From: Ruegeria sp. HKCCA6707
GTDB lineage: Bacteria > Pseudomonadota > Alphaproteobacteria > Rhodobacterales > Rhodobacteraceae
Direction: 5' to 3'
Assembly: GCF_013033515.1 (NCBI RefSeq)
Contig: NZ_WQEG01000001.1
Location: forward strand, 124,001-188,000
DNA length: 64,000 nt
Below the pieces are notes generated by a model. That model did not search any database. It was not told where the DNA came from and worked only from the letters and a program-made list of their open reading frames with translations. Of this stretch, positions 5,368 through 59,407 are shown piece by piece. The stretch's first letter is position 1, and every line of letters begins with the position of its first letter. Position numbers and translations under genes: made by a program.

Positions 5368-6006
5368 TTGAAGTATCTTCTTGAACAATTCGTCACGCTC
5401 TGGGTTGTCATCGACCCCATTGGGACCATCCCGGTGTTTATCGCCGTGACGGCGGGGATCGAGGCTGCGGCGCGCAGGCGCGTGGCTTTGTTGGCGGCCT
5501 TGGTCAGCGCCGGGATTTTGCTGTTCTTTCTGCTGTGCGGCCAACTGGTCATCGAAGCCCTGGATATCGGCCTGAATTCCTTTCAAGTGGCCGGTGGCAT
5601 CATTCTTTTTCTCTTTGCGCTGACCATGATTTTTGGCGAAAGCAAACAGCACCGGGAACAACGCGAAGCCGAAGAAGAGTTGGATCAAGCGCCGCAGAAA
5701 CCCAACCCAGCCATTTTCCCATTGGCTGTGCCCTCGCTGGCTTCACCCGGGGCTATGCTGGCCATCGTCGTGCTGACCGACAACAACCGTTACAGCGTGG
5801 TGGATCAGGGCATAACCGCGCTTGTCATGCTGGTTGTCGTGCTGATTGCTTTTGTTCTGATGCTTTTGGCCGAGCCGATTATCCGGTTCATCGGCTATTC
5901 CGGCGCCGCGATCATCAGCCGGGTGATGGGGATGATTCTGGCTTCGGTTGCGGTGAACTCGGTCCTGTCGGCGCTGCTGGAGATTTTCAAAACCGGTCAG
6001 CTGTAA
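5368..6006 (+). CDS. MarC family integral membrane protein
   Basis: A 212-residue polytopic protein with about six hydrophobic segments, the family marker VVIDPIGTIPVFIAVT near residues 13-28, and the second repeat block FPLAVPSLASPGAML in mid-protein. MarC proteins were once linked to multiple antibiotic resistance, but that has been withdrawn and the function is unknown. The start is TTG at 5368 with GGAG about 9 bases upstream. It ends against the terminator of the opposite-strand ligA-recG unit. Confidence 0.88.
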   Translation: MKYLLEQFVTLWVVIDPIGTIPVFIAVTAGIEAAARRRVALLAALVSAGILLFFLLCGQLVIEALDIGLNSFQVAGGIILFLFALTMIFGESKQHREQREAEEELDQAPQKPNPAIFPLAVPSLASPGAMLAIVVLTDNNRYSVVDQGITALVMLVVVLIAFVLMLLAEPIIRFIGYSGAAIISRVMGMILASVAVNSVLSALLEIFKTGQL

Positions 6007-6044
6007 AAAAAACCGCCGCACCTTCCGGGCGGAAAGGGCGGCGG
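6005..6044 (-). terminator. Intrinsic terminator of the minus-strand ligA-recG-small ORF unit
   Basis: GCCGCC-type stem (arms 6013-6019 and 6038-6044, 7 perfect base pairs, with an inner CCG/CGG pair) is followed on the minus strand by a run of eight T bases. On the plus strand there is no T run, so it mainly stops minus-strand transcription. Confidence 0.85.
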
Positions 6045-6191
6045 CAGGTATTGCGTCTCTCGTGTGGGACCCGGAACTCCGCGCGGGGCCGAGGCTGGCC
6101 CCTTCAAGGGAATTGGGACAGGCAGGTCACCCTTGACTGAGATGGGGATGACAAGCGCGGTAGACCGGCACGAGATCGCAGGCAGAAAACT

Positions 6192-6314
6192 CTAGAACCC
6201 TGTGGGCATATGCAGGGCAACCATCAGGATCACGACCAATGACACAGCACCCGCAGCGTCTTGAATAAACGTTGCCTGAGAACGGCTGAATGCGGATTTG
6301 ATCTGGGTCAGCAT
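6192..6314 (-). CDS. Small single-pass membrane protein (40 aa), candidate SOS-regulated
   Basis: The reading frame starts at ATG 6314 with GAGGTGACC as ribosome site and ends in TAG at 6192. The protein begins MLTQIKSAFSRSQATFIQD, a short basic amphipathic stretch, followed by one hydrophobic helix AAGAVSLVVILMVALHM. I recall similar tiny proteins downstream of recG in Rhodobacteraceae, though I cannot run a search here. A direct GTTC-N7-GTTC repeat, the alphaproteobacterial LexA-box pattern, lies 70 bases upstream of the start. The layout recalls SidA of Caulobacter, a 29-residue SOS-induced membrane division inhibitor. Function is inference only. Confidence 0.7.
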   Translation of the reverse strand: MLTQIKSAFSRSQATFIQDAAGAVSLVVILMVALHMPTGF

Positions 6315-6383
6315 CGGGTCACCTCTCGTCGTGTCTTAAGGTTTTGTTGACCTTTTGTTCTCATATTTCGAGGGGCGGGTAAA

Positions 6384-6408
6384 GAACTTTTTGAGAACAT
6401 TTGCGAAC
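6384..6408 (-). promoter_or_regulatory. Candidate LexA (SOS) box, GTTC-N7-GTTC, plus a third GTTC
   Basis: On the minus strand GTTC occurs at 6398-6395 and 6387-6384 with exactly 7 bases between, matching the GTTC-N7-GTTC LexA operator of alphaproteobacteria. A third GTTC (6408-6405) lies 6 bases further upstream. It stands in the 112-base gap between the recG stop and the start of the 40-residue membrane protein, where a promoter would be expected. Confidence 0.6.
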
Positions 6409-6425
6409 TTTATGGGGTTTACCGG

Positions 6426-10774
<4,349 letters not shown>

Positions 10775-18938: not shown

Positions 18939-21299
18939 TCAGAAATTTGCCTGAATGGTCAGGTCAAAGCTTTGCTCTTTGTCAAAGCTTTCTTTCTTAA
19001 GAGCTTTTGAGAAGTTGAAACGCAGCGGGCCAAAGGGTGTTGTCCACAGGACCGACACGCCCAATACGTGACGGATCGAACCATCTGCACCAACGATATT
19101 GGCACCCGTCGTGTCAACGTTGTTGATGTTGTAGAGGTTGCCGACGTCATAGAAAACACCGCCCCTCAAACCAAGTTCCTCGGGCAGCCCCAGTGGAAAA
19201 TCGGTCTCAAACCGGGCGACCCAGTAATAGTTGCCACCGATAGCGTCGTCTTCACCGTTCGAAAGGTCGCGCGGACCAATACCCGACGGTTCGAACCCAC
19301 GGAAGGTCCCGCTTCCAAGCAAGAAGCGATCCAGTGTTCGACTAAAATCGGAACCTCTCCAGTTAAGCGCGCCAAGCTCAAGTGTAGCTCTCAGAACTAC
19401 TTCTTCATTCAAGACACGCTGCTGCGCGATCGCGCGCGCTGTGGTTTGGATATATTTGTTGTCACCACCCAGCCCAGCGTAGTCCAGGTTTGCTTCCAAC
19501 AGCACGCCTGCATTGGGGTTCAAACCACCAAGCCGGCTGTCGTAGATATAAGACAGACCAACCGAACTTGAAGTCCGGCTGCCTTGGGCGATTTCAGACG
19601 AAATAACCGCACCGCTTGTCTGGCCGCTTTGCTGGGTCATTTCACTGTCTTCCCAACCATAGCGAAGACGCAGTGCCGAGAGTTCACCAATCGAATAGGT
19701 CAACTGCGGTTGGAAGAACAACCGCTCAGTATTGTACGACGCAAAGCTTGAATCCGTGGCAGCGAAACCCAGACCCAGGTCGAACCGCAATTGGCGACCC
19801 AATAGATAGGGCTCGGTAAAGTTCAAGGTGTACTGTTCTGACTCCTGAGCCGTCGAGATTGTCAGGCCCAAATTCTGACCACGTCCCAAAAAGTTCGATT
19901 CGTTCAAACCAACCGCGATGCCGAACCCGTCGGAAACCGAGAAACTACCACCGAGGCTCAGCGAACCGGTCGGTTGTTCGGCGACATCCACATCGACGAT
20001 CACCTGGCTTGGGCTCGACCCTTCTCGTGTTTCGACATCGGCCTCGGAAAAGAAGCCAAGTGCCCGAATACGTTCAGCGGCCTGACGGATTTCGCGCGGG
20101 TTAAAGGGGTCTCCTTCGACAGTGTCGAACTGGCGTCGGATAACACGGTCGAGTGTTGTCGTATTTCCTTCGATGTCGATCCTTTCGACAAAGATGCGAG
20201 GCCCTTTTGTCAGAACAAACTGAATATCCAATGATAGATCACGATCATTTCGTGTGACGCGAGGCTCGACCCGAAGAAAATCGACACCTTCCTTCAAGCC
20301 CAAGCGTTCTTGTCTCGCGATCGACTGTTCGACCAGCGAGGGCGTGTAGGTAACGCCAGGTTTGATCTTCAAGGCTTCCTGATAGATCGCTGGATCGACA
20401 CCCGGAATTTCACTGACCGTTGTGATGTTACCAAATGAGAACTTCTGACCTTCGGTGATGTTCATGACCAGGAAAAACGCATCCCGTTCGCGGGTGAACT
20501 CGACATTCGTGCTGTTAACCCGAAAGTCGACGTAGCCGCGCGAAAGATAGAAATCCCGAATTACCTGCTTATCGAACTCGATCCGGTCGCCGATGAAGGT
20601 ATCGCTTCGGATGAAGGTCCGCAAAAACGTTGCTTGCTTGGTTTCTAGAACACGGCGCAAACGTCGGTCCGAGAACGCGCGGTTCCCTACGAAACTTACG
20701 CGTTCAACCTCGATCGTAGTGCCTTCGGCCACTTCGAAAACCAGATCGACCCGATTGTCATTGCGACGAATGATACGCGGGATGACGGTCGCCGAAACGC
20801 GTCCCTGGGCCGAGTAAACCTCGGCGATCAGATCGGCATCCGCTTCGGCCACTTGGGGCGTAAACACCCGCCGCGTCTCAGACGAAATGACGTCAAGCAG
20901 CACCTCATCCTTTACCCGGCGATTCCCTTCGATGCTGATTTGGTTGATTGTCGGGTATTCCTGCACCTCGATCACAAGAGTCGTGCCGCGCGGTGTCAGT
21001 TCAACTGTTTCAAAAACGCCACTGTCAAGCAAACGCTGGAAAGCATCATTCAACTGACCTGCGGTTACCGTTTGGCCCGGTTCGATACCTGTTCGTTCGA
21101 TGATCGTCGACGTTTCGATCCGCCGATTGCCTTCAACTTCGAAGCTGTTGATGGTGTAAGTCTGCGCCTGCGCGACCTGTGGTGCTGCCGTTAACCCGAC
21201 GACAGTAAAGGCAAAAATGAATACTAGTGCGCGCCACAATATATTGATTGGTGCCTGTACCGAGCCGCAGGATGTGCCCGTACCTCTGCTGTCCGCCAT
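18939..21299 (-). CDS. bamA: Outer membrane protein assembly factor BamA
   Basis: Central pore of the BAM complex. The 786 residues contain a signal peptide (ALVFIFAFTVVGLTAAPQVAQA), five POTRA domains (about residues 50-430), and a 16-strand barrel. The loop-6 motif is present as FRGFEPSGIGPRD, and the last residue is phenylalanine (LTIQANF), the outer-membrane beta-signal. It is followed closely by ompH/skp, fabZ and the lpx genes. The upstream ribosome site is weak (TTGAG). Confidence 0.97.
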   Translation of the reverse strand: MADSRGTGTSCGSVQAPINILWRALVFIFAFTVVGLTAAPQVAQAQTYTINSFEVEGNRRIETSTIIERTGIEPGQTVTAGQLNDAFQRLLDSGVFETVELTPRGTTLVIEVQEYPTINQISIEGNRRVKDEVLLDVISSETRRVFTPQVAEADADLIAEVYSAQGRVSATVIPRIIRRNDNRVDLVFEVAEGTTIEVERVSFVGNRAFSDRRLRRVLETKQATFLRTFIRSDTFIGDRIEFDKQVIRDFYLSRGYVDFRVNSTNVEFTRERDAFFLVMNITEGQKFSFGNITTVSEIPGVDPAIYQEALKIKPGVTYTPSLVEQSIARQERLGLKEGVDFLRVEPRVTRNDRDLSLDIQFVLTKGPRIFVERIDIEGNTTTLDRVIRRQFDTVEGDPFNPREIRQAAERIRALGFFSEADVETREGSSPSQVIVDVDVAEQPTGSLSLGGSFSVSDGFGIAVGLNESNFLGRGQNLGLTISTAQESEQYTLNFTEPYLLGRQLRFDLGLGFAATDSSFASYNTERLFFQPQLTYSIGELSALRLRYGWEDSEMTQQSGQTSGAVISSEIAQGSRTSSSVGLSYIYDSRLGGLNPNAGVLLEANLDYAGLGGDNKYIQTTARAIAQQRVLNEEVVLRATLELGALNWRGSDFSRTLDRFLLGSGTFRGFEPSGIGPRDLSNGEDDAIGGNYYWVARFETDFPLGLPEELGLRGGVFYDVGNLYNINNVDTTGANIVGADGSIRHVLGVSVLWTTPFGPLRFNFSKALKKESFDKEQSFDLTIQANF

Positions 21300-31437: not shown

Positions 31438-31466
31438 TTGCATCTGTCCTACGCCTTGCCTATATA
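31438..31466 (+). promoter_or_regulatory. Putative ssrA promoter
   Basis: TTGCAT (31438-31443) and TATATA (31461-31466) are separated by 17 bases, near-consensus -35 and -10 elements just upstream of the tmRNA gene. Confidence 0.6.
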
Positions 31467-31471
31467 AAAGA

Positions 31472-31785
31472 TGTCCTTCGGGACTATGGACATAAACGCG
31501 CTCGTAATAAGCGGATCGGACCCGGGGGCGGTACCCGGCGGCTCCACCAACCATCCTTCGTTTGGGGATTTTGGGGCCGAAACAGGATCGACGAACGTCT
31601 AAAGGGGTTAGCTTTGTCTCGGCTGTCTGCCACCGTTACCGGCGAAACTAGTACAATTGCAAACGACAATCGTGCTCCGGTTGCAGTTGCTGCGTAAGCA
31701 GTAACAAGACCGAAATCTAAGCCCTTGCGCCTAGCCGCGTAAGGCGGGGTTCGCAGGTACCTGGCAACAGAAACCTGCATTTCCC
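31472..31785 (+). ncRNA. ssrA: tmRNA, circularly permuted two-piece form (SsrA)
   Basis: The gene order is permuted: the acceptor piece comes first and ends GGCGGCTCCACCA at 31549; then a 23-base spacer removed in processing; then the coding piece beginning GGGGCCG at 31573. GGGGCCG and CGGCTCC form the 7-pair acceptor stem with the alanine-identity G-U at pair 3. The tag frame GCA...TAA (31659-31697) encodes ANDNRAPVAVAA. The T-stem CCGGG/CCCGG is present. Ends are approximate; the 3' end is a GCAGGT/ACCTGC hairpin (about 31753-31778). The tag would be delivered by SspB, encoded 2.1 kb downstream. Confidence 0.95.
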
Positions 31786-31877
31786 CTATGCGCGAATTCT
31801 GAACAAGATCTCAGGTTTTGTTCACGGTTTATTTAGGCCTTTGCCGCATCGTCCTGACCAAGAGACAGGAGGCTGTG

Positions 31878-58378: not shown

Positions 58379-59407
58379 TCATGGGAATAACGGGGCCATC
58401 ATCAGACCGGTGGTTTCGACCTCACCTAACATCAGGTTGGCGTTCTGCAAGGCTTGGCCGCTGCTACCTTTTGTCAGGTTATCCAAGGCACCCACCACGA
58501 TGGCCCGCCGCTCGACCCGGTCCGCGACAACACCGATATGGCAGAAGTTCGAGCCTCTCACGTGATGGGTCGAGGGTGTTTCGCCGAATTGCAGTACTTG
58601 AATGAACGGCTCAGCCTCATAGGCGGATTTCAGTGTTTCATAAACACTTTGCGGGTCACCCTTCACGTAAGTCGTGGCCAAAATCCCCCGGTTTGCGGGC
58701 AGCAAATGCGGGGTGAACTGCACATGAACCGGGCGTCCTGCGATCTTGGAAAACTCCTGATCGAACTCGCCCAGATGCCGGTGCGTGCCGCCAACCGCAT
58801 AGGCGTGATAGCCCTCGCTCAGTTCCGCATGCAGCAGGTTTTCCTTCAACGACCGACCAGCGCCCGAAACGGCGCATTTGAGGTCCAGAATGATGTCATC
58901 CAGATCAATGACGCCAGCGGACACCAGAGGCCGCAAAACGAACTGACCCGTTGCCGCGTTGCAGCCTGTGCCAGCTACAAGCCGGGCGGTGCGGATCTGA
59001 TCCCGATAGAACTCGGTCAGGCCGTAAACAGCCTCTGACTGCTGCTCAAGCGCGCTGTGCGGGTTGCCGTACCACTTTTCATAGGCCTCGGCGTCCTCAA
59101 GCCGGAAATCGGCAGACAAATCAACGATCTTGAGGTCTTTTGGCAGCGCGCGGATCACGTCCTGGCTGGTTTTATGGGGCAGCGCGCAGAAACACAGATC
59201 GATCTGCGAAAAGTCGATTTCCGAGATTTTGCACAAATCCGGCAGGTCCATATGGCGCAGATGCGGAAAGACCTGTGCCATCGAAAGCCCTGCCTTACGC
59301 TCGGCAGCCAAGGCAACGATGTCCATGTTCGGGTGCTCGGCAATCAGCCGCACCAGTTCGGCGCCGGTATATCCCGAAGCGCCCAGAATTGCGATTTTGT
59401 GGGTCAT
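58379..59407 (-). CDS. argC: N-acetyl-gamma-glutamyl-phosphate reductase ArgC
   Basis: Third step of arginine synthesis. 342 residues with NADP-binding GASGYTG (9-15), catalytic C149 in [13 protein letters not shown], and [27 protein letters not shown]. It precedes ccmE by 8 bases on the minus strand. Confidence 0.97.

Follow-up and report, generated by a model that had tools for sequence, protein, structure and literature searches.

A recG-linked locus of the Rhodobacteraceae with a LexA-type double operator, a 40-residue membrane peptide and a structured 3′ RNA: a candidate SOS unit

Single-span membrane inhibitors of cell division that are induced by the SOS response and act on FtsW are represented by SidA (PMC4211646) and YneA (PMC13396833). 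The latter source describes YneA as acting on FtsW and includes modelling of others (PMC13396833). The type I toxins TisB and DinQ of Escherichia coli are likewise LexA-controlled peptides of the inner membrane, 27–29 residues in length, and are subject to RNA-level control (PMC8309996).

The locus compared with these systems here lies in a 64,000-nucleotide stretch of DNA from Ruegeria sp. HKCCA6707, hereafter the window, and thus in the Rhodobacteraceae. This large family of marine and soil bacteria, abundant in the sea, includes phototrophic model organisms and producers of gene transfer agents. Release of gene transfer agents in the family has been tied to LexA (PMC9638019), and a study of Dinoroseobacter LexA predicts LexA targets; its main text contains neither “recG” nor “division inhibitor” (PMC6473078), and the main text of a paper on Ruegeria pomeroyi sRNAs has no “recG” (PMC4809877). 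The open-access literature searched, to the extent of its accessible text, names no agent that stops division in Rhodobacteraceae after DNA damage, and no description of a recG-linked peptide locus was found in it. The reading proposed here, to which a probability of about 0.45 is assigned, is that the locus forms a small SOS unit of the Rhodobacteraceae in which a LexA-controlled peptide pauses constriction and a folded 3′ RNA is carried along. Its features are as follows.

6005–6046, minus strand: intrinsic terminator, hairpin and T-run (sequence and fold)
6047–6185, minus strand: structured 3′ RNA with a closing stem P1, two inner stems and unpaired CUGYCY motifs (126-bit match to model R2, fold, covariation)
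6192–6314, minus strand: gene for the 40-residue single-span membrane peptide, stop codon included (ORF list, homologues, pN/pS)
6322–6327, minus strand: ribosome-binding site GAGAGG, purine-rich, positions −13 to −8 (sequence)
6346–6360, minus strand: inverted, degenerate second LexA-type box, GAAC-N7-CAAC, its GAAC starting 23 nt after box 1
6378–6383, minus strand: −35-like TTTACC directly after box 1 (99-locus consensus; TTTACa in the family)
6384–6398, minus strand: LexA-type box 1, GTTC-TCAAAAA-GTTC (conserved in 108 of 110 loci)
6405–6408, minus strand: third direct half-site GTTC, 6 bases before box 1 (sequence)
6426–8540, minus strand: recG, the constant upstream neighbour (NCBIfam, synteny)

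The 40-codon frame is a real protein gene, found family-wide and evolving as a protein. It runs on the minus strand from an ATG at 6314 to a TAG ending at 6192, between recG and a convergent gene for a MarC/NAAT-type transporter (5368–6006). The ATG and the good ribosome site that the first-pass annotation had reported are both in place, the latter as GAGAGG at 6327–6322. Across 30 sequences from the genus, pN/pS in this frame is 0.19, as opposed to 1.47 and 3.37 in the two alternatives. Column entropy averages 0.35, 0.18 and 1.02 at codon positions 1, 2 and 3; this codon pattern rules out a spurious open reading frame.

A lack of either frame or box among relatives had been named beforehand as one outcome that would refute the proposal of an SOS-controlled gene, and both are conserved. 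With the single window sequence as query, a homologue was recovered from 111 of the 149 genomes of the family, representing 110 of 148 genera, and from all 54 genomes of the window's genus. Surroundings were fetched for 110 of the 111 matched places (G022 is absent), and 108 sequences, namely the window copy and 107 of these 110 loci (excluding L108, L110 and L001, the window's own copy), were combined into a profile, A1, which, in the order, detects the peptide in 116 of 121 genomes, all assigned to this one family. For the 38 family genomes in which the single-sequence search had found nothing, the profile was used and, in 20 cases, the DNA around recG was searched as well. We count 29 of them as carriers. 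In 24 the evidence is a profile match examined in its surroundings; in the other five (G023, G033, G058, G090 and G130) it is a small frame immediately 3′ of recG that is accompanied by a box. G058 and G090 are the weakest of these five because they lack the D-x-x-G motif. Single-sequence search, profile and synteny together thus place the peptide in about 140 of 149 family genomes, the nine without a demonstrated copy being G008, G014, G017, G029, G054, G059, G095, G109 and G122.

Some of the more divergent genomes deserve separate mention. In G033 and G090, frames of 40 and 36 residues lie 3′ of recG with GAAC-N7-GAAC just upstream, and RecG is only 43–45% identical to that of the window, so position and box appear to outlast the peptide sequence. 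G014, G029 and G059 gave no RecG-length match and no peptide; the RecG search returned only a match of about 400 residues within a frame of about 1,170 residues, Mfd-like in size. Joint loss of RecG and peptide is possible in these three genomes. LexA had no match in G029 and only a below-cut-off match in G059.

Beyond the family, no credible A1 match was found in a 385-genome sample of the class, the four non-family matches being stretches of 16–23 residues within frames of at least 290 residues, and neither GTTC-N7-GTTC nor GAAC-N7-GAAC occurs near the recG 3′ end in 28 non-family loci of the class (two of which, L455 and L459, are truncated at contig ends). On these two results, a unit extending outside the family was rejected for the genomes and loci covered. 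An origin as a mobile-element gene was likewise rejected, on the basis of the fixed synteny with recG and of tblastn searches of 72,556 plasmid and 50,697 phage records, neither of which gave a match for the peptide at E ≤ 0.01.

The upstream position of recG and ligA on the same strand, noted in the first-pass annotation, holds by NCBIfam identification of both (ligA at 8513–10765). In 105 of the 110 loci recG, on the same strand, is the immediate upstream neighbour; the exceptions are L008, L081, L083, L099 and L110. These repair neighbours were counted in favour of an SOS unit; linkage to recG alone is no argument for a role in division. The strictness of this linkage, together with the inverted second operator and the structured RNA past the stop codon, goes beyond what had been described for the locus before.

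Two features elsewhere in the window were recorded. A holin-associated N-acetylmuramidase gene (NCBIfam NF040573; 57198–57917, minus strand) adjoins, within a few bases, argC and a gene for a small membrane-anchored protein; it is possibly a lysis gene and may be linked to a gene transfer agent. A tmRNA gene with the tag ANDNRAPVAVAA is predicted by ARAGORN at 31457–31788 on the plus strand.

The single hydrophobic helix seen earlier in the window peptide extends to its relatives: a 17-residue window with a mean Kyte-Doolittle hydropathy of at least 1.6 gives one span in all 108 aligned homologues. Residues 1–18 are net positive in 81 of the 108, which suggests, short of proof, an N-in topology. 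Every one of the 108 profile sequences has D19, G22 and L34, and conservation is 90% or more at L26 and P37. The window peptide has no match in Pfam, NCBIfam or PHROGs, and no Pfam or NCBIfam family matches more than two of the 108 homologues at E ≤ 0.1. Because the span is uncharged and has invariant positions, binding to a single partner is the suggested mode of action, and D19, G22 and L34 would point to a specific partner rather than to a general effect on the membrane. The peptide probably helps to pause growth or division during DNA repair, and SidA-like inhibition of division would be its likeliest role.

The alternative that survives best, unlikely as we hold it to be, is a membrane toxin of the TisB/DinQ type, which on SOS induction would lower the membrane potential and leave damaged cells dormant, with RNA structure in the message restraining translation. 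Size class, SOS control and a span in the inner membrane would agree with TisB (29 residues) and DinQ (27 residues) as described in PMC8309996, and so would the presence of a conserved RNA structure in the message. However, the membrane segment of TisB is described there as an amphipathic helix that carries charge, has salt bridges and presents a polar face (PMC8309996), whereas positions 21–37 of the present family are free of charged residues in 104 of 108 homologues. Pairing between leader and 3′ RNA, considered as a possible restraint, was rejected since partners from the same locus (−28.1 kcal/mol) do no better than swapped ones (−28.7 kcal/mol), and within the scope of this pairing test no gene for an antisense antitoxin came to light. 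That almost all family members have the peptide also suggests a core function. An inhibitor is tentatively favoured over a depolarizing toxin because the span is uncharged with invariant positions, as would be expected for binding one partner, and because the gene is near universal.

Sequence comparison further indicates that a conserved, covarying structured RNA lies 3′ of the peptide gene in the same predicted transcript. With its terminator, whose T-run reaches into the end of the convergent MarC-type gene, it spans about 185 nt in the window (6005–6185, minus strand). A terminator-ended stretch follows the stop codon in 98 of the 110 loci (87–250 nt, median 170); these 98 form the 3′ RNA set, the other 12 having no terminator by the search pattern. 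The window stretch including the terminator folds at −82.3 kcal/mol (z = −3.7), a stability reached by none of 200 shuffles, and 30 same-genus sequences share one fold consisting of a long closing stem P1, inner stems and the terminator. When the two sides of P1 were exchanged between loci for 92 of the 98 RNAs, pairing within the same locus averaged −21.9 kcal/mol versus −16.0 kcal/mol between loci; in 41 of these 92 loci the native pairing outperformed 95% or more of the swaps, and in 60 it outperformed 90% or more.

Covariation is also evident in the model-fitted alignments, where all 25 pairs have changes on both sides and paired cells amount to 88.4% in 57 sequences and 89.3% in 86 sequences (three of them off site), as compared to 67% and 62% in column shuffles and 37–48% in slid controls. 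It is important to note that fitting an alignment to a model favours the structure, and that the swap test is independent of fitting. MAFFT followed by RNAalifold on 45 diverse sequences recovered the terminator only; the closing stem was recovered from single folds, the within-genus alignment and the swap test.

A first covariance model, R1, searched in 100 of the 110 loci, matched 57 at E ≤ 1, all at the expected site and 41 of them below 0.01. A second, R2, was searched in 100 of at least 118 loci from the operator scan described below, some of which come from genomes used in building it, and gave 86 matches at E ≤ 1, 83 of them at the site in 83 loci and 69 below 0.01; one scan locus, L326, encodes a peptide identical to that of L002. 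In the window's own genome R2 has one match (150 of 1058 first-look candidates were scored), and it has none in the five searched genomes with very divergent peptides, so the RNA either reaches less far than the peptide or has diverged there beyond the model. Rfam 15 has no match at E ≤ 1 in window positions 5800–6700, and in 10 loci its only matches are three sub-threshold Ysr141 matches (20–24 bits, cut-off 196) lying off the 3′ RNA. The motif CTG[CT]C[CT] occurs 332 times in the 98 RNAs versus 50 in shuffles and is 75% unpaired in the predicted folds, compared to 41% of all bases. CCTCC, which is typical of CcsR RNAs, is depleted, with 8 occurrences versus 51 in shuffles. As for the strand, the T-run and an excess of G-U over A-C at paired positions (104 versus 31, counted in an alignment fitted to the gene strand) favour the gene strand; folding energy is lower on that strand in only 25 of the 98 and so gives it no support.

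These data raise the question of whether the RNA itself is the main product, an SOS-induced small RNA from a 3′ end whose CUGYCY loops bind mRNAs or an RNA-binding protein, with the peptide as side product or helper. The covarying structure and the enriched, mostly unpaired motif speak for this, and UTR-derived small RNAs are established in Rhodobacter sphaeroides (PMC8625941). We nevertheless consider it improbable, given the clear protein-level selection on the peptide, the wider reach of the peptide than of model R2 and the folding energies just described.

The remaining question is what controls the transcript. The first-pass annotation had proposed GTTC-TCAAAAA-GTTC at 6398–6384 on the minus strand as a LexA operator of the alphaproteobacterial type, with a third GTTC six bases before it. 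The sequence at these positions is as proposed, the third GTTC occupying 6408–6405, and the half-site pattern is conserved along with the gene. GTTC-N7-GTTC lies within about 115 nt of the ATG in 108 of the 110 loci, L100 and L103 having degenerate forms only, as opposed to none of 327 control windows (140 nt each, taken 210–700 nt upstream of the start codon and mostly within recG); the exact box was also present in 19 of 24 further family members. The triple arrangement GTTC-N6-GTTC-N7-GTTC is found in 90 of the 110 loci, and a second box of the form GAAC-N7-[CG]AAC in 95, the 23-nt spacing being counted 94 times. Box 1 and the inverted second box are therefore predicted to form a double operator of facing boxes, for which 99 loci give the consensus GTTCnCaaATGTTCTnAaAAAGTTCTTTACa-N11-ataTGAGAACAAAggggCAACA. 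No −10 element was resolved, either by a sigma-70 scan, which returned no site, or from the 99-locus consensus.

Taken alone, GTTC-N7-GTTC is weak evidence because it is near chance both in the window (5 matches versus 1.8 expected, with 3 of 100 shuffles reaching 5) and in the genome (178 versus 146 for the reversed pattern); the other window matches are at 58715 and 62914, both inside long open reading frames, and at 21080 and 46121. The box at 6398–6384 stands above chance because it is conserved across the family loci, and this conservation, together with the empty control windows, rules out a chance box. A scan of named genomes with an extended operator pattern of 29 specified bases gave at least 118 stretches. 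All 118 among the matches listed lie at the peptide locus; recG is upstream on the same strand in 117 of them and the small open reading frame is found by a simple rule in 115; in the three others (L347, L355 and L403) the fetched stretch ends no more than 175 bases from the match. Genome names, considered for 80 of the matches, point in each case to Rhodobacteraceae or to unresolved alphaproteobacterial bins.

Comparison with the recA and lexA promoters of the genus places the arrangement in context. In all 19 same-genus genomes compared, the window's included, recA promoters (for example L163) carry facing GTTC-N7-G[GA]TC and GAAC-N7-GAAC, and lexA promoters carry GAAC-N7-GAAC; further out in the family a box is present at 22 of 23 lexA loci (27 fetched, 24 listed for the box count, 23 long enough). 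Two features set box 1 apart from the lexA boxes: its spacer, and the A preceding its second half-site, a base at which it also departs from the Caulobacter consensus as quoted in PMC13384398. The median score of box 1 is 16.0, close to the 90th percentile of random spacers (16.3), whose median is 12.2; lexA boxes have a median of 19.9. The case for LexA at the peptide locus thus rests on half-sites, arrangement and conservation, and not on the spacer; predicted LexA control of the peptide gene is well supported by sequence. Because about 97% of Caulobacter SOS promoters carry one box according to PMC12700426, a double operator would be unusual. LexA was matched in 27 of the 30 family genomes tested, the negatives being G008 (82% complete) and G029, in which no peptide was found, and G033 (74% complete), which has one. 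That another GTTC-repeat regulator owns the operator and the gene lies outside the SOS response is very unlikely, since the deviant spacer and AGTTC half-site are outweighed by the comparable pair of facing boxes at recA in all 19 genomes, by the identity of GTTC-N7-GTTC with the published Caulobacter LexA motif (PMC12700426) and by the near-constant presence of LexA itself.

Computation thus finds a coding and conserved frame with a hydrophobic span, an operator, synteny with recG and a folded 3′ RNA with its terminator. From this pattern we infer LexA binding, induction, topology, target, division arrest and a role for the RNA, which can be joined in a simple model of the favoured SOS unit, whose layout would suit tight repression. 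In undamaged cells, LexA bound to two facing operators that bracket the promoter would keep transcription shut. DNA damage would trigger RecA-dependent self-cleavage of LexA and release one short transcript of about 0.35 kb, encoding a 40-residue inner-membrane peptide with its N-terminus inside and one span. The conserved helix face (D19, G22, L26 and L34) would most likely dock onto one membrane partner, probably in the late division complex (FtsW/FtsI/FtsN), and constriction would be paused, as SidA does in Caulobacter. The folded RNA and terminator at the end of the transcript may stabilize the message or be processed into a small RNA.

A more far-reaching version, which we offer as tentative and somewhat unlikely, is a dual-function SOS transcript, near universal in Rhodobacteraceae, that yields both the pausing peptide and a released small RNA whose CUGYCY loops bind mRNAs or an RNA-binding protein. 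If this were true, one gene of about 0.35 kb would answer DNA damage at both the membrane and the mRNA level. More generally, the peptide locus is a concrete, family-wide candidate for the division stop after DNA damage, and the 3′ RNA, with no Rfam 15 match, would be a new SOS-linked RNA family.

Among known systems, the CcsR1–4 RNAs in the 3′ UTR of ccaF1 of Rhodobacter sphaeroides (PMC8625941) are similar in that a conserved RNA lies 3′ of a small open reading frame in the same family of bacteria. They differ in control, CcsR being described as induced by oxidative stress and UdsC as having an RpoHII promoter (PMC8625941), whereas a LexA-type operator is found here, and in their loops, which here carry CUGYCY with CCTCC depleted. 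As compared to TisB and DinQ (PMC8309996), the present peptide has an uncharged span and invariant D19, G22 and L34, its RNA structure lies 3′ of the open reading frame, and no antitoxin RNA was identified in the pairing test. YneA, SosA and ChiZ are, like the protein proposed here, single-span membrane division inhibitors induced by the SOS response or DNA damage, but YneA is described with an extracellular LysM domain (PMC13396833), whereas the present peptide ends 3–4 residues past its span. SidA of Caulobacter crescentus, as described in PMC4211646, comes closest: a very short, SOS-induced single inner-membrane protein of an alphaproteobacterium, with a GTTC-N7-GTTC operator; span and operator of the Ruegeria gene are read from sequence only. 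Compared by description, SidA has 29 residues rather than 40, and the present peptide is found, in the searches run, in Rhodobacteraceae only, behind recG, with a double operator and a structured 3′ RNA. SOS-induced membrane peptides as a kind and small RNAs in 3′ UTRs are already known; as far as the searches reach, what is new is the peptide family with its double operator and its strict position behind recG, and the covarying RNA in the same predicted transcript.
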